From Lacinutrix venerupis (lineage in GTDB: Bacteria > Bacteroidota > Bacteroidia > Flavobacteriales > Flavobacteriaceae): DNA of 64,000 nt. Positions 21,633 to 30,483 of the stretch are shown here, in pieces. Position 1 is the stretch's first letter, and each line of letters starts with the position of its first letter. The translations under genes and the position numbers were made by a program. The notes under the pieces were generated by a model. That model saw only the letters and a program-made list of their open reading frames with translations, ran no database searches and had not been told where the DNA came from. The DNA is taken from assembly GCF_003663945.1 (NCBI RefSeq), contig NZ_RCCH01000001.1, forward strand, positions 310,001-374,000, written 5' to 3'.

Positions 21633-21782
21633 TATTTAGGTAATTAAGTAGGATTTACACTGCTAATATATAGCGCTTTGTGTGTTTACTTTAAAAAAAA
21701 TCGGTAAACTGTCAAAGTATTTGATTTACGAGATAATATTACATAAATAATCGACCAAATACACTTTTTGTAAAATTTATTT

Positions 21783-21812
21783 AAAAAAAAAGCTAAACAT
21801 TTCTATTCAGCT
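21783..21812 (-). terminator. Terminator of the ATP-grasp/DUF1704 cluster
   Basis: On the minus strand AGCTGAA, an eight-base loop and TTTAGCT form a seven-pair stem (one G-T) followed by nine T residues. It lies 24 bases after the stop of the last cluster gene. Confidence 0.75.
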
Positions 21813-21835
21813 AAAGTTTTAGTTTTTAATTAATA

Positions 21836-22876
21836 TTATAACGTTGCTAACCTACTATTAAATAAATAATCTGAATACATATTTTTATAGTACACTTTCT
21901 TTTCTATAGCTTTAATTACTGGAGTACAAAAATCGGCATCATACATTTCGCTTATAACATTTAAACCACCAGGACTAAACACATTAATTTCCATTAGTTT
22001 GTCTCCAACAATATCTATTCCAACTAAAAACATTCCGTCTTGAACTAATTTAGGCCTAACAATATCTGCTAATTTCATAATTTTATCGGTCATTTTTACA
22101 GCTTCTGGTCTGCCTCCAGCATGAATGTTACTTCTAATATCATCAGAAGAATTTACACGTTGCATTATAGCATATTTGCCGTCAACTTGTAAAGGCTCTC
22201 CATTCATTAAAATTAATCTAGTATCACCTTTACTTGCTTCTGTTAAATATTCTTGAGCAATTATGTAACCATCTCTTGCTATAGCATCTATTGTTTGATT
22301 TAAATTATGTTCATTTTTTTTATCCATCATAAATACATTGGTGCCACCTGAACCTTGTAATGGTTTTAAAATCATTTTTTGCTTTTGCTTTTTAAAAAAA
22401 GCTTTAATTTCATCATGATCTCTTGATATTATTGTTTTAGGTCTTAAAATTTCTGGAAAATGCTGAAAATACATTTTGTTAACTGCTCCGGCTAAACTAT
22501 TTGGATGGTTTAAAACAATTACACCATTACGCATAGCTATTTCTCCAAATATAAATGCTGCATTTTGTGCCCAATCGCGTTCGTTAATTTCATCTGCAGG
22601 ATTATTTCTAAGAAATAAAACATCTAAATCCTCAGAAGTTATTCTGGTAAACTTCTCCTTTTGTACAGCTTTAAAATAAGTTTCTTGTGAATTAAATTTT
22701 TTCTCATTTATAGTTTTACAACGTACAGATAAATGACCTTTAGATGCGTAAGACAACTCTCCAACACCTATAAAGTAAACATCATGTCCGCGTTTATAGG
22801 CTGCATAACCTAAACCTGGTGTTGTATAATTTGGTTTTTCGGTATCGTGGTCGTTTATTATAAAAGCAATTTTCAT
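21836..22876 (-). CDS. GshB-like ATP-grasp ligase A
   Basis: 346 residues with glutathione synthetase-type architecture. The N-terminal substrate domain (KIAFIINDHDTEKPNYTTPGL) leads into LFLRNNPADE. The ATP-grasp core (about 150-330) has KMILKPLQGSGGTNVFMM for nucleotide binding, YIIAQEYLTEASKGDTRLI, and the metal-binding end IDIVGDKLMEINVFSPGG. It is the last gene of a same-strand block with DUF1704, an FGase-family enzyme and a second GshB-like ligase. These organisms make bacillithiol (bshA is at 36917), so true glutathione synthesis is doubtful. A peptide or amino-acid ligase is my inference. Confidence 0.85.
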   Translation of the reverse strand: MKIAFIINDHDTEKPNYTTPGLGYAAYKRGHDVYFIGVGELSYASKGHLSVRCKTINEKKFNSQETYFKAVQKEKFTRITSEDLDVLFLRNNPADEINERDWAQNAAFIFGEIAMRNGVIVLNHPNSLAGAVNKMYFQHFPEILRPKTIISRDHDEIKAFFKKQKQKMILKPLQGSGGTNVFMMDKKNEHNLNQTIDAIARDGYIIAQEYLTEASKGDTRLILMNGEPLQVDGKYAIMQRVNSSDDIRSNIHAGGRPEAVKMTDKIMKLADIVRPKLVQDGMFLVGIDIVGDKLMEINVFSPGGLNVISEMYDADFCTPVIKAIEKKVYYKNMYSDYLFNSRLATL

Positions 22877-22974
22877 GTATTTTAGTTTTGATTCTCTCTA
22901 AAATACCATTTCTCTTTATAAGTAATTAACGCTTTAACAATGTATTAGGACTCATTTCACAATAAATTATCATT

Positions 22975-24810
22975 TTAATTTACTAATTCTGAAATAGCGA
23001 TACCTTTTCTAAGTTTTTGTAATCTTTCTTGAACGCTTTTACGTTCTAAAAATCTTGGTAACTCTGGAGATTTAAGTACATTTCTATGAAGTAACTCTTC
23101 AATTAATTCTATATGATTTGTATTAAACTTACCAGTATATAGGGTTTCAAGTTTTCCTCCTTTTTTAATATACTTTAATAAGTCTATTAATCCTGCAAGA
23201 TACACGGCATCTTTAGTTAAACCTCCACCTCTATAAACTCTCATTGTTATATAGTATGAAATACGATCTGAAAAATTATATTTTTTCTTTAATAATTTAA
23301 AAGTCTCTATAAAATCTGCTCCATTTACCATAGAGTTTACTGCTATAACACGTCCGGCTAATAACCTTAATCTGTTTACTGTTAGTCCTCCAACTAAATA
23401 CTCTGCTAACACGGCAAGACCTTCTTGTAATTGATCGTAACCTTCAAAACCTTCGTACATTTGTTTTAATGGTTGTCTTTTTCCATTACAATAGGTTAAA
23501 ATATGAGTTGCTACCTCATGTTGTATTAAAGCGTCGCACCTATTAGCATCTAAAGATATTTGATCGTTAATTAATAGTTTTGTTTTAGAAACCATTATAC
23601 CTGCAACATCGTTTCTTACTTCAAGTGTAAGGTTTAAATTTGGGAATTTTGAATTATAATAATCTAATTCTTTTTGTGCATGTGCTGCAAACTCAGAGCA
23701 GTTATATCTTTCTTTACTTTTTATCTCTTCGCGTTTTGGGAAAGCTTTTAATATTTTTTTTGATTCTTTTAAAACGTTCTTTTTTATAACTCCATAAAGA
23801 CTTTCTCCAACAAAACGAAAGTTTTTTGTACCACGCTCTTCTAGCATAGTTAATTGTTTTTCAATCTCTAAACGTTTGCCTCGAAGAATAAAAGCAATAG
23901 TTGGATCTTCTATTTTGTCCATTGGAATATTGTAGAGCTTACGCTTTTCTAATTCTGGATCTAACGCTATTAGCCTATATTTAAAGGATGGTGTTTTTTT
24001 AAATTTATTTTTTTTAAAAACTTCCCATTCTTCTGTACTGTTTACTGGTGTAGTTCTTAAAAGAAAAGACATGCCAGAACTTATTTCGGCTAACTCTGCA
24101 TCAGACTGGATTGTAACATCGTCTATATGTGTTTTTCCTAACATTAAGTAATGTTTAAAATCATCTGACGTTTGAATTCTAATAAATTCGAAAACAGCTT
24201 TCTTTATAGTTTCAGAAAAAATAGTATAAAATTCTCTAAAGAACAGAGAATATAATTCTTCTGTTTCGTCATTTTTATAAAGTGTTGGAACAGAAATTCC
24301 AAAAACTAATGTTCCTGTTTTTTTAGAATCTTCAAGGTTTATTAAGCTATTTAAGTGTTTAGGGTGCCTAATTGTTGTATTAGAAACTTCTGTAGATACA
24401 TTGGGATAGATATCGTTTAACTCATTAAACCCTTCTGTTAAACTTTTTACTGTTCCAGGTGCTTTATCTACTGGACAAGAGATTTTAAATTTAGAACTGT
24501 TACTCTCGTTATCTGGCCAACATTCTATTAACAAAAATGTATTAAACTTTTTTGAAGATTCTTTTCTAATTGCGTCGATAATATTCGATATATCAAGAGA
24601 TTCGTGAGCTAATATATATGACGCTTGTGTTTTTAGTAATCTAGAAAAATATACATCTGGTTTTTTAAATCTATAAACACATATAAAAGGTAATAATTTA
24701 TCTATATGTAATAAGCCATTTTCTGGTAAATTGATATTTAAAGGTTTATTATTTGAAATGGAGTTACATAGATTTTCAATTATATCTATTGGTGCTTTTG
24801 TATTGGTCAT
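22975..24810 (-). CDS. DUF1704 'QEGLA' metallopeptidase-like protein
   Basis: 611 residues. The C-terminal half holds a zinc-peptidase signature: HEVATH at 431-436 (HExxxH) and the conserved QEGLAVLAEYL, whose Glu463 is placed to be the third ligand. Bacterial relatives are annotated 'flavohemoglobin expression-modulating QEGLA motif protein'. The eukaryotic DUF1704 member MATCAP is a tyrosine carboxypeptidase acting on tubulin tails (established knowledge). The N-terminal 300 residues lack recognisable motifs. The gene abuts the FGase-like gene with no spacer. A role in trimming ligase-added residues is inference. Confidence 0.85.
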   Translation of the reverse strand: MTNTKAPIDIIENLCNSISNNKPLNINLPENGLLHIDKLLPFICVYRFKKPDVYFSRLLKTQASYILAHESLDISNIIDAIRKESSKKFNTFLLIECWPDNESNSSKFKISCPVDKAPGTVKSLTEGFNELNDIYPNVSTEVSNTTIRHPKHLNSLINLEDSKKTGTLVFGISVPTLYKNDETEELYSLFFREFYTIFSETIKKAVFEFIRIQTSDDFKHYLMLGKTHIDDVTIQSDAELAEISSGMSFLLRTTPVNSTEEWEVFKKNKFKKTPSFKYRLIALDPELEKRKLYNIPMDKIEDPTIAFILRGKRLEIEKQLTMLEERGTKNFRFVGESLYGVIKKNVLKESKKILKAFPKREEIKSKERYNCSEFAAHAQKELDYYNSKFPNLNLTLEVRNDVAGIMVSKTKLLINDQISLDANRCDALIQHEVATHILTYCNGKRQPLKQMYEGFEGYDQLQEGLAVLAEYLVGGLTVNRLRLLAGRVIAVNSMVNGADFIETFKLLKKKYNFSDRISYYITMRVYRGGGLTKDAVYLAGLIDLLKYIKKGGKLETLYTGKFNTNHIELIEELLHRNVLKSPELPRFLERKSVQERLQKLRKGIAISELVN

Positions 24811-25641
24811 TTATCTTGAAAAATTTTTGTAAAAAATTTCGGAATTTTTTTTAATTCTATCTCTTAATTGATGTTCTACTGCTGCCACAACTTCTGGAAA
24901 TATAATATAATTATACTCGTCGCAGTAAATTTTAGCTATTTCTGTAGCTAGAACTAAAGTATTGCTAAAATTCTGGGTAATATACTTTAAAAAATAACCG
25001 TTACCTCTAAAGGTATCGTTAATTTTTGATGTGGATTTTATACCATTAGGAAGTTTTATTTGTGATAAACTTTCTCTCCAAATTTCTATATGATTGCCAA
25101 ATCGTTTATTATCGATGTTGTCCGTACCTAAATTCCAGGTTGGTACTTCTCTATCCCAACGCTTCCAATTATAGCTATGCATATCGAATACAATACAAAC
25201 TCCAAATTTGTCTTCAATTTTAGAAATTAAGGCGTGGACTACTTTATAAAAAGCTTCATGCTTTAAAAGTGATTTCTGTTTTTGATTTTCTAATATTGGT
25301 GTTTTCCATAATTTTTTTCCCCAAGCATCATTATAGATTGCTGTTTCAGGACTACGATTTAAATCGTACTCAAACCTTGAATCCATACCAGCTATAACTA
25401 TTGGATGAGAGTTTACCATGGTTTTGGTCTCTGGATCTTCTTCGTACCAACGCTCATATTCTGTATGCAAGCAATTATCCCATAACTCTTTACGAAATTG
25501 GTGCCCATCGTGTACAGCACCACAAACGTAATGTACATAATTATCTATTTTAAGAGTAAAGGAATAATCTGTAGAAACGGCATGAAAGGTTTCTTCTGCA
25601 TTTATTTTATCGACTATTTGAGAAATGGATAACTTTTCCAT
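24811..25641 (-). CDS. N-formylglutamate amidohydrolase family protein
   Basis: 276 residues of the FGase (PF05013-type) zinc hydrolase fold. Visible family elements are HYVCGAVHDGHQFRKEL near residue 40, VIAGMDSRFEYDLNRSPE near 90, the central CIVFDMHSYNWKR with likely metal and catalytic His, and LATEIAKIYCDEYN near the C terminus. Classical members finish histidine degradation, but no hut gene is nearby, and the partners here are ATP-grasp ligases and DUF1704. Hydrolysis of an N-acylated or gamma-linked glutamate-like product is a better guess in this setting. Confidence 0.85.
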   Translation of the reverse strand: MEKLSISQIVDKINAEETFHAVSTDYSFTLKIDNYVHYVCGAVHDGHQFRKELWDNCLHTEYERWYEEDPETKTMVNSHPIVIAGMDSRFEYDLNRSPETAIYNDAWGKKLWKTPILENQKQKSLLKHEAFYKVVHALISKIEDKFGVCIVFDMHSYNWKRWDREVPTWNLGTDNIDNKRFGNHIEIWRESLSQIKLPNGIKSTSKINDTFRGNGYFLKYITQNFSNTLVLATEIAKIYCDEYNYIIFPEVVAAVEHQLRDRIKKNSEIFYKNFSR

Positions 25642-25681
25642 ATTAAAGGTTTAAATTAATAATGAAGAAAGGCAATTTTAT

Positions 25682-26017
25682 TTATTCCTTTAAAATTTTA
25701 CGTAAAAATTTTAATGTAGCTTCTTCCATAGTATTGGCTTCTCCATCTGCATAAAGTAATAATTTTATATCTGCAAAAAGACCTGCATAATCATCTCTAA
25801 AATAGTCGTGCTCATTTACACTTTTTAGTATTTTTTGAATGCATTGATAATCGTTATCTCTATCAAACTCTTTATGGATTGAGGCGTAAGTTTTTTTATC
25901 TACTTTAGATCTTATAAATTCTTTTTCTTCGTTAGTTTCGTGCAAATCTGAATTTGCAACATATAAAAGTATATAGGCTACCAGTTCGTTTTTAGACCAA
26001 TTTTTAGATGTATCCAT
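25682..26017 (-). CDS. TerB-like helical protein
   Basis: 111 residues, all helical by composition. The pattern resembles TerB/DUF533-type domains: ELVAYILLYVANSDLHETNEEKE with acidic residues after the first helix, and LLLYADGEANTMEEATLKFL repeating the acidic DGE element, which suggests metal-binding loops. No tellurite genes are nearby. The gene lies 40 bases after the start of the downstream FGase-like gene and three bases from the sulfurtransferase gene, so it belongs to the cluster transcript. Confidence 0.6.
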   Translation of the reverse strand: MDTSKNWSKNELVAYILLYVANSDLHETNEEKEFIRSKVDKKTYASIHKEFDRDNDYQCIQKILKSVNEHDYFRDDYAGLFADIKLLLYADGEANTMEEATLKFLRKILKE

Positions 26018-26020
26018 AAT

Positions 26021-26851
26021 TTATGCTATTGTTAATGTTCCATATTCTGTCCACGATCCATCGTAAACACTATTGTTATATCCTGCTACTGTTGCTGCAA
26101 GAGCTAAAACTGAAGCTGTAATACCAGAACCACAAGTAAACACTAAGTGTTGATGTTCTTTTGCTAAGCTTTTAAATATTTCTTGTAATTCTTTTTTTGT
26201 TTTTAATTTGTTGCCAACTAAAACTTGATTAAACGGTAAATTTATTGATGATGGAATAACACCACTTCTTAAACCTTCTCTAGGTTCTGCAACAATACAA
26301 TTAAATCTATCACTAGATCTTGCATCTATAATTTTAAAGTTTTTATCTTTTGATATTGCTTCTAAAGATTCAAAATATACCACTTTATTTGGGTTATAAA
26401 CGGCATTAAAATTCCCTTTTTTAAAAACATTTTTAACCGATTTATCTTCTAAGCTAAAGTTTTTTGCCTTCCACTCTGGCAAGCCACCATCTAGTATAGC
26501 AACATTTTTAAAACCAAAAGTTTTTAATAACCACCATGCTCTTGCGCTGGAATATAAACCATGATCATCGTAAACAACTATTACCGAATTATTATTGATG
26601 CCAAGTATTTGAGCATTTTTTTGAAATTGAGCTACAGATGGAATTGTGTTTGGAAAAGGAGATTTTATGTTACTAAACTTCTTTTTTATATCGAAAAATT
26701 GACTTTTAGGTATTTTATAATTAGATAATGCAGAAACATCTCCTACAACTTTAGAAATTGTAGCATCAAAAACCAATAAATTTTCTGCTTGTAAATGATT
26801 ATTTAACCACTCTGCCGAAACTATATTTTCAATATTATTAATTATAGACAT
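26021..26851 (-). CDS. Two-domain rhodanese sulfurtransferase (3-mercaptopyruvate sulfurtransferase-like)
   Basis: 276 residues made of two rhodanese domains. The N-terminal inactive copy has DATISKVVGD and VVYDDHGLYSSARAWWLLKTFG. The C-terminal copy has IDARSSDRFN and the active loop FTCGSGITASVLALA, with Cys near residue 241. CGSG(I/V)T(A) loops are typical of 3-mercaptopyruvate sulfurtransferases. It moves sulfane sulfur to thiol acceptors, so within this cluster it could link to thiol or sulfur chemistry on the ligase product, or simply be a passenger. Confidence 0.9.
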   Translation of the reverse strand: MSIINNIENIVSAEWLNNHLQAENLLVFDATISKVVGDVSALSNYKIPKSQFFDIKKKFSNIKSPFPNTIPSVAQFQKNAQILGINNNSVIVVYDDHGLYSSARAWWLLKTFGFKNVAILDGGLPEWKAKNFSLEDKSVKNVFKKGNFNAVYNPNKVVYFESLEAISKDKNFKIIDARSSDRFNCIVAEPREGLRSGVIPSSINLPFNQVLVGNKLKTKKELQEIFKSLAKEHQHLVFTCGSGITASVLALAATVAGYNNSVYDGSWTEYGTLTIA

Positions 26852-26898
26852 TATTAAACCTTTTTTCTTTTTAATTATAAAAAGTGTAATTACATTTT

Positions 26899-27915
26899 CT
26901 ATTTAGATTCCATTTTCTCTGTCATTAGCTTATGCTTTTCAACATTCCAATCTATATTCCAATTAGAAACATATTCTGATAGTGGTCCTAAACCAACTTC
27001 TGCTCTTCTTTTGTCTACATTTTCGGGATCTTTTAAAGGAGAAACATAAAACTCGCCTGTTTCTTGATTTCTGGCTATTTGGCTACCGTAAATTTGTCTT
27101 TTACCAATTCTTAAAGCAACTCTGTCTTCTAGCAATGCTAAGCTACTTGGTTGAGCATTATTTTTTGCAACTGCATCTCGCATCATTGGTAAGTATTTTT
27201 CTTGAACTTCTAATGGTGAATGCTGAATAACTAAAAACAAGGTCATGTTCCCTCTTCCGCCAATAACATCTTGACCTAACCAGCCACGCTCATCTAATAT
27301 TTTTTGAATTTTTATTAAATTTATAGAGTCCTTTTTTGCAATAGCATCCCAATGTGCTTTCATTTCATTAGAGTCTCTACCATAGGTTTCTTCAATAGTC
27401 TTTATTTCTCTTCTTAACCCTTGATCTTCATTGTATATAGTATCTAGAATAGCAACTAATGGTTTGTCTAAATTTGCCTCTTTTTTTTCTTTATTTGCAA
27501 TTACAATTTCCAATAATTGATTCCATTTGCTATCTGTATGCAAACTTGCTAAATCTGGATCGGTTGTTATATGACTATAACTTGAATATTCACCTTTTTC
27601 TGCTATTCTAAATAATTGAACAAATGCAGAATCTTTTTGATTAGCTAAAGCCCACGAACAAGCCGCATTATATCTATCTGTATTATTACTTCTATTATTA
27701 GTACTTTTAAATGCTTGAGAATACTTTTTTGCTGATTTTAAATATTCTTGAGTTTCATAAAGACTCCAAGCTTCATTTTTTAAAGTTTGATATTTTTCCT
27801 TTTGCTCTAATGAAAGCTCCTTAATTACTTCTTTCTTTACATTTTCTTTTTTTACACCTTCATTTTTACAAGAGGTAAAAATTATTACAAGTACTAATAA
27901 TAGGACATTTTTCAT
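26899..27915 (-). CDS. Lipoprotein with DUF6624-like C-terminal domain
   Basis: 338 residues. The N terminus is a lipoprotein signal (LLLVLVIIFTSC, lipid-modified Cys16). Next comes a TPR-like region (EAWSLYETQEYLKSAKKYSQAF and YNAACSWALANQKDSAFVQL). The C-terminal part has KRQIYGSQIARNQETGEFYV and VDKRRAEVGLGPLSEYV, which I recognise as the DUF6624 pattern. It is the only clear envelope lipoprotein in the ligase/peptidase cluster and could connect that chemistry to the cell surface. No biochemical function is known to me for the domain. Confidence 0.75.
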   Translation of the reverse strand: MKNVLLLVLVIIFTSCKNEGVKKENVKKEVIKELSLEQKEKYQTLKNEAWSLYETQEYLKSAKKYSQAFKSTNNRSNNTDRYNAACSWALANQKDSAFVQLFRIAEKGEYSSYSHITTDPDLASLHTDSKWNQLLEIVIANKEKKEANLDKPLVAILDTIYNEDQGLRREIKTIEETYGRDSNEMKAHWDAIAKKDSINLIKIQKILDERGWLGQDVIGGRGNMTLFLVIQHSPLEVQEKYLPMMRDAVAKNNAQPSSLALLEDRVALRIGKRQIYGSQIARNQETGEFYVSPLKDPENVDKRRAEVGLGPLSEYVSNWNIDWNVEKHKLMTEKMESK

Positions 27916-27964
27916 GGCAGTATATATTAATGTTACATTTTATAAATAATAAAACTCAAATTGT

Positions 27965-29002
27965 TTAAGCATCTTCTACAGTTTTACGCAATTTAGATAA
28001 ACGATTAAATGCCTGTACATTATCTAACACTTTACTTTCTAAAAAGTCTATTACTTTCTCTTCTAATTTAAATTTATTTTTATAAACTTTATTCATGTAA
28101 GTTATACCTCCAGGAGACATTACATTAACTTCTACAAGCTTTCCTCCTATAACATCAATACCAACAAAATACAATCCATCTTTTACTAATTTAGGACCAA
28201 TTTGTTTACAAAGTGCTTTTTCTGTTTTAGTTAAAGAGTGTTTTGCTATACTTCCTCCTGCTGAAACATTTGAACGATGATCGTCTGTACCAGGTACACG
28301 CTTCATTGCTCCTATATATTCTCCATTAAGCATTAATATTCTTACATCTCCTTGGTCTGCTCCTTCAATATAATCTTGTAAAATAACATAGTTTGAAGAA
28401 CCGTCACTGCTATTTATATAAAAGTCTAGTAATGAATTAATATTATTCATTGCAGATTTTTCAATTAAAATTACTCCGGAACCTCCAAAACCATTTAAAG
28501 GTTTTAAAATCATTTTATCTGCTTTAGACTCCTTAATTTGTTGAATTAAATAGTTTTTATTTTTAGATACGTGTGTATTAGGAATTATATTACTGTGTGC
28601 ATCTCCAAAAGCTGCTGTATATAATTTATTATTAGCTTCACGCATTCCTTGTAAAGAGTTCATTATAAAGACATCATCTTTTACCGAATCTAAAAAGTTA
28701 AGCATAATTGGATCTAATGGCGGATTTGCTCTAAAAAAAATAGTATCAAAACCTGCTAACGGTAGCATTTCTTCACGTAAAGTAGCTTTTTTATAGAATG
28801 CTTTAAGTGTGGTAGGTACTTTATCCATACGCCCAATAACATTACAAAATGCATTTGTTACACTATCTCTAATAGTTAAATTGGCTGGTGTGCAAATAGC
28901 AACACCATGTCCACGTTTTACACATTCTTTAATTAGAGCTAAGCTTGTATCATTTTCTGCATCTATTTGATCCCATGGATACATTATAAAGCAAACATTC
29001 AT
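27965..29002 (-). CDS. GshB-like ATP-grasp ligase B
   Basis: 345 residues, the second glutathione synthetase-like ligase of the cluster. It has an N-terminal substrate domain (VCFIMYPWDQIDAENDTSLA), FFRANPPLDPIML, the ATP-grasp glycine loop KMILKPLNGFGGSGVILIE, YVILQDYIEGADQGDVRIL, and metal residues in IDVIGGKLVEVNVMSPGG. It is clearly diverged from ligase A in the substrate domain, so the two probably use different substrates or act in sequence. It is probably the first gene of the cluster, just downstream of the symporter terminator. Confidence 0.85.
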   Translation of the reverse strand: MNVCFIMYPWDQIDAENDTSLALIKECVKRGHGVAICTPANLTIRDSVTNAFCNVIGRMDKVPTTLKAFYKKATLREEMLPLAGFDTIFFRANPPLDPIMLNFLDSVKDDVFIMNSLQGMREANNKLYTAAFGDAHSNIIPNTHVSKNKNYLIQQIKESKADKMILKPLNGFGGSGVILIEKSAMNNINSLLDFYINSSDGSSNYVILQDYIEGADQGDVRILMLNGEYIGAMKRVPGTDDHRSNVSAGGSIAKHSLTKTEKALCKQIGPKLVKDGLYFVGIDVIGGKLVEVNVMSPGGITYMNKVYKNKFKLEEKVIDFLESKVLDNVQAFNRLSKLRKTVEDA

Positions 29003-29057
29003 ATTTTTTGGTTTTGGTTTGTTGTATAAATTTATAGATAATTTATAAATTATTTAA

Positions 29058-29105
29058 TAAAAAAATAGATTTCATTATTTTAAAATTAATAAAACAATGA
29101 AATCT
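29058..29105 (-). terminator. Symporter gene terminator
   Basis: On the minus strand AGATTTCATT, a 19-base AT-rich loop and AATGAAATCT form a perfect ten-pair stem followed by an A and a seven-T run. It lies 53 bases after the symporter stop and separates it from the ligase cluster. Confidence 0.75.
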
Positions 29106-29157
29106 TTGATATTTTTTAATATAAATAATTTAAAATGTTAGAAAAAAACAGTTAAAA

Positions 29158-30483
29158 TTATTTTACAGCTTCGTAATTATCATCCCATTCTTTAGGTTTA
29201 GGATTGTCGTGTAATTTGCCTAAAGATTTTGCAACCATCATAGATACTGTTGCATCACCTGTAACATTTACTACTGTTCTACACATATCTAAAGGTCTGT
29301 CTACTGCAAAAATTAAAGCCAAACCAATTGGTAATAATTCTGCAGGAAAACCAATAGATTCTAAAACAATTACTAACATTACCATACCTGCACTTGGTAC
29401 TGCAGCACTACCTATAGAAGCTAATAAAGCTGTAGCTATAATTATTAATTGGTTTGTAAATGTTAAACCTTCTGGCCAAATAACCTGCATAATAAATACT
29501 GCAGCAATACCTTGGTATAAACTTGTTCCATCCATATTTACGGTAGCGCCAACTGGCAAAACAAAACCAGCAACTTCTTTATCTACACCCAAATGTTCTT
29601 CTACGCGCTCCATAGTTACAGGTAATGTTGCCGCACTAGAACTTGTAGAAAACGCTAACAATTGTGCTGGAGATAATTTATTTAAAAACCATAAAGGCGA
29701 CTTTTTTGTATATACTTTTATTAAAATTAGATAAAACCCAATCATAAGAGCTAATCCAAAAACCACACATAAAGCATAGGTTAAAAGTTTTAAAAGAATT
29801 TCTGTATCATCAAAAGCTATAATAACATTTGCCATTAATGCAAAAACAGCATATGGAGCAAATAACATTATTAGGTCTACCATTTTCATTACAACCTCGT
29901 TTAACGAGTCGAAGAAATCTACAAGAGGTTTTGCTTTTTTCTCTGAAATTAACAATAAACAAATACCTACAAATAAAGCAAAAAAGATAACTTGAAGCAT
30001 TTTTGCTTCTCCTAAAGCTGTAAATATATTACTTGGGAAAATATCTACTAATGCTTGTAACGGTCCAGCATCGTTTTGAGCAGATGCTTTCATTAATTTA
30101 TCTGATACTCCAGCATCATTTTCGTATTTCATTTTTATTTTCTCAATAGTATCTTGAGGCATTCCTGTTCCTGGCTTTATAGTATTTACAATAGTTAATC
30201 CTATTACTATTGCTACTACTGTTGTACCAACATAAATTAATATGGTACGTAAACCCATTTTCTTTATTTTAGAAATGTCTTTTAAATCTGAAATTCCTTT
30301 AATTAACGATGCTAAAATTAAAGGTACTGCAATTAGCTTTAAAAGGTTAATAAAGATTTTTCCAAATGGAGCAATCCAATCGGAAACAAAATTTCTTCCA
30401 CCATCTACAGAGTTCATTATGAATCCAAAGATGATACCTAAAATCATTCCGATAATTATTTTCCAGTGTAATGCTAATTTCAT
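29158..30483 (-). CDS. Dicarboxylate/amino-acid:cation symporter (GltP/DctA family)
   Basis: 441 residues with multiple membrane segments of the DAACS fold. Diagnostic elements are the Ser-rich re-entrant hairpin AFSTSSSAATLPVTM near residue 275, the cation- and substrate-binding VNMDGTSLY, the second hairpin IGSAAVPSAGMVM, and ALIFAVDRPLDMCRTVVNVTGD near 400 with the substrate-binding Asp and Arg. It imports glutamate, aspartate or C4-dicarboxylates with Na+ or H+. It is upstream of the ATP-grasp cluster on the same strand but separated from it by a terminator. Confidence 0.93.
   Translation of the reverse strand: MKLALHWKIIIGMILGIIFGFIMNSVDGGRNFVSDWIAPFGKIFINLLKLIAVPLILASLIKGISDLKDISKIKKMGLRTILIYVGTTVVAIVIGLTIVNTIKPGTGMPQDTIEKIKMKYENDAGVSDKLMKASAQNDAGPLQALVDIFPSNIFTALGEAKMLQVIFFALFVGICLLLISEKKAKPLVDFFDSLNEVVMKMVDLIMLFAPYAVFALMANVIIAFDDTEILLKLLTYALCVVFGLALMIGFYLILIKVYTKKSPLWFLNKLSPAQLLAFSTSSSAATLPVTMERVEEHLGVDKEVAGFVLPVGATVNMDGTSLYQGIAAVFIMQVIWPEGLTFTNQLIIIATALLASIGSAAVPSAGMVMLVIVLESIGFPAELLPIGLALIFAVDRPLDMCRTVVNVTGDATVSMMVAKSLGKLHDNPKPKEWDDNYEAVK

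Follow-up and report, generated by a model that had tools for sequence, protein, structure and literature searches.

Seven closely spaced genes in Lacinutrix venerupis raise the question of which of them act together and on what kind of bond. They lie in the window analyzed here, a stretch of 64,000 nucleotides (contig NZ_RCCH01000001.1, 310,001–374,000; all positions below are window coordinates), in which seven minus-strand open reading frames (ORFs) were listed with spacers of 49, 47, 3, 40, 0, and 98 bases. An earlier note on this DNA had described seven genes on one strand with 0–98-base spacers, all of which were found in place, and had regarded them as one unit. Our comparison reduced the unit to a core of four genes, gshB1-FGase-MATCAP-gshB2, encoding two GshB-like ATP-grasp ligases, a zinc amidohydrolase of the N-formylglutamate amidohydrolase (FGase) family, and a metallopeptidase (MATCAP, formerly DUF1704, also called "QEGLA" protein). 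We interpret this core as a module of ligases and hydrolases by which amide bonds to amino acids are formed and cleaved, an interpretation to which we give a probability of about one half. Its direct support is the conserved linkage, the partner specificity, the conserved active-site residues, and the absence of two gamma-glutamylcysteine ligase families from the host.

The linkage was investigated in 149 genomes of the host's family, the same set being searched with profiles for several families. Matches to PF02955 fell into a strong class (at least 138 bits) and a weak class (at most about 82 bits, with RimK-like length). MATCAP was identified in 77 of the 149 genomes, and strong GshB-like genes occurred in 73 of these 77 and in none of the 72 MATCAP-negative genomes (Fisher p = 3e-38). 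A strong GshB gene started within 6 kilobases (kb) of 82 of the 88 MATCAP places; the six without one were those in G056, G142, G117, and G066, and one of two in G030 and in G007. Conversely, MATCAP was located within 6 kb of 84 of the 85 strong GshB places. The sole strong GshB away from MATCAP (L195; G077:C2:402285) is a second gshB1, situated after a DUF819 gene. Median gaps, measured by the longest ORF, were −4 between FGase and MATCAP (n = 96) and 9 between MATCAP and gshB2 (n = 27). Distances also correlated with those of MATCAP (gshB2, 0.92, n = 29; FGase, 0.86, n = 105; gshB1, 0.64, n = 90; symporter, 0.36, n = 87), although these coefficients were drawn from different locus sets and are weak evidence.

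The ligase genes gshB1 (27965–29002, minus strand) and gshB2 (21836–22876, minus strand) matched PF02955 with E-values of 1.4e-53 and 1.9e-54, respectively, and the best solved relative of both products was Escherichia coli GshB (1gsa; E = 2.8e-35 and 6.4e-38). In a tree of 43 rows after thinning, gshB1 and gshB2 formed two separate supported clades, with a long branch leading to E. coli GshB and with rhizobial gshB2 grouping beside Bacteroidota gshB2. Lys125, Lys160, Asp273, Glu281, and Asn283 of E. coli GshB were conserved in more than 90% of both clades, in which Thr288-Cys289 was replaced by Gly-Gly, likewise in more than 90%. Both ligases passed the "glutathione synthetase" subfamily model NF009110. 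The glutathione synthase model NF003573 (cut-off 272) was passed by gshB1 (275.5) and by two Photobacterium gshB1 proteins, and failed by gshB2 (221.9), while both ligases missed the glutathione-synthase cut-off of TIGR01380. They also missed that of the RimK family TIGR00768 (80.0 and 91.6 vs 143.4), yet reached that of the Pfam RimK domain PF08443 (63.4 and 62.2 vs 21). No Pfam TTL family was detected in either at E 0.01. A 914-residue ORF at locus L055 that appeared to be fused with gshB2 proved on re-reading to be a shadow ORF.

The MATCAP gene (22975–24810, minus strand; 611 residues) encodes the sole MATCAP match in the host genome, with a PF08014 score of 336.9 bits against a cut-off of 27 (E = 1.8e-100). 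Its Pfam metallopeptidase domain spans residues 264–602 (23005–24021, minus strand) and includes the motif HEVATH at residues 431–436 (23503–23520, minus strand) and QEG at residues 462–464 (23419–23427, minus strand). In the alignment, His431 and Glu432 were present in 132 of 132 MATCAPs, and His436 and Glu463 in 131 of 132 each. When 19 bacterial MATCAPs were combined into a profile, it matched the human MATCAP structures 7z5g (E = 1.2e-17) and 7z6s (E = 4.5e-16), in which the same HExxxH and distal glutamate residues were aligned; a single-sequence search reached 7z5g only at E = 0.7. The QEGLA model TIGR02421 (cut-off 338.65) was passed by the Sinorhizobium (353.1) and Photobacterium (459.9) proteins and failed by that of the window (330.1). 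A predicted MATCAP model, poor in its N-terminal part, gave 1k9x as its best match in the PDB (E = 0.064) and none at E 0.001, and human MATCAP was outside the 50 structure matches listed for it.

The FGase gene (24811–25641, minus strand) was assigned by PF05013 (E = 7.2e-11). His44, Asp153, His155, and Glu234 were conserved in 105 of 105 aligned sequences. Its structural model had a predicted local distance difference test score (pLDDT) of 90.6 and matched the N-formylglutamate amidohydrolase 2q7s first and metallo-carboxypeptidases next after the FGase entries, whereas no NCBIfam match, including the hutG equivalog, was obtained at E 0.01. An AstE/AspA-type amidohydrolase (PF24827) was encoded 3' of gshB2 in five FGase-less loci, as judged by profile, four of which were scanned with Pfam. 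FGase, AstE, and AspA enzymes act on N-acyl-glutamate or N-acyl-aspartate. FGase+MATCAP fusions were identified in Photobacterium, Vibrio, and one Bacteroidota genome (L057, L168, L172, and L173), accompanied by gshB1 in L057, L172, and L173 and by no GshB in L168. In L172 (Photobacterium) and L168 (Vibrio), the module or fusion comes after a DUF413 (MaoP) gene, and L168 has an adjoining gene annotated as a LysR regulator. A different FGase of about 230–265 residues adjoined weak-class GCS2 (PF04107) genes in 16 of 16 cases among the matches listed (G063:C42:587318–589110 and 15 other genomes), which makes this the family's second type of neighbourhood combining an FGase with a ligase.

The window MATCAP belongs to a long type whose N-terminal region (approximately residues 1–235; 24106–24810, minus strand) is probably a degenerate FGase-like domain, as judged by sequence comparison. 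In hhalign, these ~235 residues matched FGase with probabilities of 94.8% and 89.6% in two builds, compared with 0.1–1.3% for five controls, and both histidine stretches of FGase were lost. Matches to four divergent FGases (1.7%) and to AspA (1.3%) were hardly above the controls, so the assignment depends on the larger FGase set. Structure prediction of the long MATCAP gave block pLDDT values of 29–74 over the first 220 residues, with relatives in the alignment for the C-terminal part alone, and a PDB search with this model of low N-terminal pLDDT yielded nothing significant.

Is the association confined to close relatives? Among 395 genomes of the phylum, MATCAP was present in 19, eight of them outside the host's family (groups f3, f7, f8, f24, and f44), and GshB adjoined MATCAP in seven of these eight loci. 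In a scan of named genomes, chiefly Flavobacteriaceae, 70 of the 80 loci carried gshB1 and FGase beside a short MATCAP; one of the 80, L109, ends at a contig edge. MATCAP matches were also found in 127 plasmid records, from which 14 loci were examined (two from Sinorhizobium meliloti, the others from Vibrio, Photobacterium, Pseudoalteromonas, several Rhizobiales genera, and one unverified record marked Roseateles). GshB was adjacent in 12 of the 14 (not in L168 and L171), FGase or an FGase+MATCAP fusion was present in 13, and the order FGase-MATCAP-gshB2 recurred on rhizobial megaplasmids. In L171, on a Pseudoalteromonas megaplasmid, MATCAP has a thioredoxin/redoxin-family gene as its neighbour, and both GshB and FGase are lacking. 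In 39 further neighbourhoods (L047–L083, L085, and L086), selected by MATCAP, hence non-random, and partly shared with the 80 loci, GshB was present in 36 (34 of 38 by script, with L055 and L079 added by inspection) and absent from L071, L077, and L086. Co-occurrence is thus not limited to close relatives, whereas such a limitation is what the earlier note had named as speaking against its unit, and the note's proposal that amide-forming and amide-cleaving enzymes constitute a conserved unit was borne out in Bacteroidota and Pseudomonadota. Of 12 stretches on viral contigs that matched the search patterns, none encodes a relative. One unverified Pseudomonas phage record (L181), excluded from every count, contains part of a MATCAP-like sequence, aligned at 32% identity to 55% of the query; its ORFs of at least 120 residues contained no QEGL or QEGI motif, in a pruned list that may miss the true frame.

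The collected neighbourhoods revealed partner specificity. Short MATCAP was accompanied by gshB1 in 85 loci and by gshB2 in none, and long MATCAP by gshB2 alone in 26 loci, by both ligases in two (L047 and L048), and by gshB1 alone in none. The gshB2 clade thus partners long MATCAP, and the gshB1 clade elsewhere partners short MATCAP or the FGase+MATCAP fusions. Two parallel versions of the module can be told apart, one pairing short MATCAP with gshB1 and the other pairing long MATCAP with gshB2; elements of both meet in the window, a rare hybrid. In the window operon, long MATCAP seems to have replaced short MATCAP, which suggests that both MATCAPs may perform the same step. In L060 and L061, the long MATCAP-gshB2 pair is flanked by two genes that by eye resemble guaA and bshC (bacillithiol synthesis), and similar-sized neighbours occur in L058, L063, and L064.

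An operon of ligase, MATCAP, and FGase in at least two phyla points to a previously undescribed cycle in which amino acids are added and removed; its reactions, their order, the class of substrate, and any role in adaptation to osmolarity are what we infer. The GshB-like ligases would activate a carboxylate with ATP and attach an amino acid to it. MATCAP, a predicted zinc carboxypeptidase, would then remove the C-terminal residue of the product, and FGase or its AstE/AspA-type substitute would cleave the N-acyl bond that holds an acidic amino acid. Rather than glutathione, the probable product is a peptide, an acyl-amino acid, or a tail containing glutamate or aspartate. In Photobacterium damselae, a "GshB" gene (RS17020) and a "QEGLA" gene (RS17025) were upregulated 38.4-fold and 27.5-fold, respectively, in 1% compared with 3% NaCl (PMC10308900), and RimK, another ATP-grasp ligase, was also among the top low-salt genes.

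Several observations weigh against this reading. Four of the 77 MATCAP-positive genomes in the family lack any strong GshB (G056, G142, G117, and G066, the last being 80% complete), and in nine of the 80 named-genome loci a short MATCAP follows the symporter while GshB and FGase are both missing, indicating that the hydrolase can persist without the ligase. An operon-type FGase likewise occurs behind the symporter without GshB in a MATCAP-negative genome, near a contig end (L186; G010:C49). The acidic specificity derives from family knowledge, and gshB1 narrowly passes a glutathione-synthase model (275.5 vs 272). The low-salt data come from another phylum, and RS17020 and RS17025 are equated with the module on the basis of how they are named, their neighbouring tag numbers, and the order of genes seen in L172 and L173.

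The acceptor may be either a small peptide or a protein tail. It is possible, and we propose it tentatively, that a cellular protein is the acceptor, with residues attached to its C-terminus or side chains by the ligases and taken off again by MATCAP together with FGase. This fits the match of the bacterial MATCAP profile to human MATCAP, the near-invariant HExxxH and distal glutamate, and the resemblance of the FGase model to metallo-carboxypeptidases next after FGases, and a bacterial operon of a ligase and a counteracting protease has been described for RimK-RimB (PMC12239564). However, no recurrent target-protein gene was seen in the neighbourhoods, for which no systematic search was made; the ligases are GshB-like, contain no TTL domain, and score below the NCBI RimK cut-off despite their Pfam RimK matches; the other hydrolases come from small-molecule families; and MATCAP is also found without a ligase. 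This last observation, together with the known catabolic character of the FGase family, could instead mean that MATCAP and FGase degrade peptides or N-acyl-glutamate and that the ligases are incidental. We consider such salvage unlikely, given the near-exclusive linkage to GshB in the host's family, the lack of an NCBIfam match such as hutG for the window FGase at E 0.01, and the presence of the symporter with or without the module.

A further alternative is that the ligases make glutathione or a close thiol tripeptide that the hydrolases recycle. It would account for E. coli GshB being the closest solved relative of both ligases and for the passing of NF009110 by both and of NF003573 by gshB1. 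Against it stand the failure of both at TIGR01380 and the Gly-Gly replacement in both clades. Two families of the first-step enzyme are also missing from the host: the gamma-glutamylcysteine ligase families PF04262 and PF04107 occurred in 0 and 25 of the 149 family genomes, respectively, and neither in the host (other GshA types were not searched). Genetic evidence is offered by S. meliloti, of which strains 2011 and 1021 are closely related. A gshB (SMc00419) mutant of strain 2011 was validated by high-performance liquid chromatography as lacking glutathione (PMC7063052); pSymB of strain 1021 nonetheless has FGase, long MATCAP, and gshB2. The absence of these GshA families from the host and the phenotype of the mutant make glutathione synthesis very unlikely.

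That all seven genes form one system, as first proposed, has in its favor the single strand, the short gaps, and the bounding hairpins. We regard it as extremely improbable, since a sulfurtransferase gene (rhodanese domains; 26021–26851, minus strand; PF00581, E = 2.1e-27) and the small gene labeled TerB-like in the earlier note (25682–26017, minus strand) accompany the symporter in core-less genomes, and the lipoprotein-like DUF6624 gene (26899–27915, minus strand; PF20329, E = 5.5e-22) is not recurrent, with one weak match (E = 9.1e-05) in the other collected loci. These three genes are not part of the core. The TerB-like label itself could not be maintained: the window protein matched no Pfam family even at E 10. 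The SDF-family symporter (29158–30483, minus strand; PF00375) had a match in 16 of the 16 MATCAP-negative genomes searched. When its locus was read in 12 MATCAP-negative genomes, it was directly beside aroC in eight, followed 3' by the sulfurtransferase gene in five (two with an intervening ORF), and accompanied by the "TerB-like" gene in two, G091 (L183; the host's genus) and L187. The latter two have symporter, sulfurtransferase, and "TerB-like" genes together without GshB, FGase, or MATCAP; G091 showed no PF08014 match, no PF05013 match, and only a weak PF02955 match. Because they persist without the core, these three are resident neighbours. Sulfurtransferase and "TerB-like" genes, fused in seven loci (L081, L149, L151, L152, L158, L162, and L163, of which L081 and L163 are probably from one genome), appear to form a separate pair.

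The earlier note had also placed terminators at both ends of the group. Two hairpins indeed fold on the minus strand: one between the symporter and gshB1 genes (29056–29110; 16 pairs, −16 kcal/mol, z = −6.6) followed by a T-rich stretch, and one 3' of gshB2 (21772–21818; 9 pairs, −8.8 kcal/mol, z = −2.1) followed by a T run, the latter folding equally well in 8 of 200 shuffles. Neither was recovered by a simple terminator scan, which gave 2 sites compared with 4.5 in shuffles. A promoter scan was uninformative (75 found vs 72 expected). PADLOC at E 0.01 gave no defence-system match except a marginal Csm2 match of FGase (E = 0.0093).

Each of these families is known. Our literature searches gave no description of the module; Iyer and colleagues reportedly made a comparative study of ATP-grasp amidoligases in 2009 that may have noted the neighbourhood. 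Within the scope of these searches, what is new is how they are combined, the occurrence of the module in two parallel versions, its fusions, and the domain of long MATCAP that is likely a degenerate FGase. The uncharacterised bacterial MATCAP family, named after a flavohemoglobin effect alone, thereby gains partner enzymes and a testable pathway. The name "glutathione synthetase" becomes doubtful for such ligases where no gamma-glutamylcysteine ligase is found. Both gshB1 and gshB2 share the ATP-grasp fold and conserved residues with GshB, but they form separate clades, and two families of that ligase are absent from the host. The window FGase similarly has the fold and zinc-type residues of HutG/FGase N-formylglutamate amidohydrolases, but differs in lacking a hutG match in NCBIfam and in being encoded with MATCAP and GshB-like ligases.

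On ribosomal protein S6, RimK adds residues and RimB removes them. In RimK-RimB and RloA-RloC, as in the module, an ATP-grasp protein is encoded with a peptidase, and a hypoosmotic phenotype is described for Rlo (PMC12239564); their peptidases, however, are retropepsin-like, and gshB1 and gshB2 score below the NCBI RimK-family cut-off. In eukaryotes, an ATP-grasp ligase (TTL/TTLL) is opposed by metallopeptidases (MATCAP/CCP) on tubulin tails. The MATCAP/TMCP enzymes acting with TTL/TTLL and CCP belong to the same peptidase family as bacterial MATCAP and share its catalytic motif. Their activities include the removal of C-terminal residues and the trimming of glutamate chains (PMC10499314), and the available part of that survey, which covers 22 organisms, does not discuss bacterial homologues. 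The bacterial module differs in that its ligases are GshB-like and not TTL, its genes are adjacent, its third enzyme is FGase or AstE/AspA, and no tubulin substrate is known for it. On a rather speculative view, it is a bacterial tail-modification cycle with an ATP-grasp writer, MATCAP as eraser, and FGase as a second, M14-like eraser, whose stock of peptidases may have supplied eukaryotes with the tubulin detyrosinase and deglutamylase and to which osmolarity may be one signal. If the substrate of the module is a protein tail, the machinery that detyrosinates tubulin would have a relative in bacteria, accessible to knock-out in laboratory strains.

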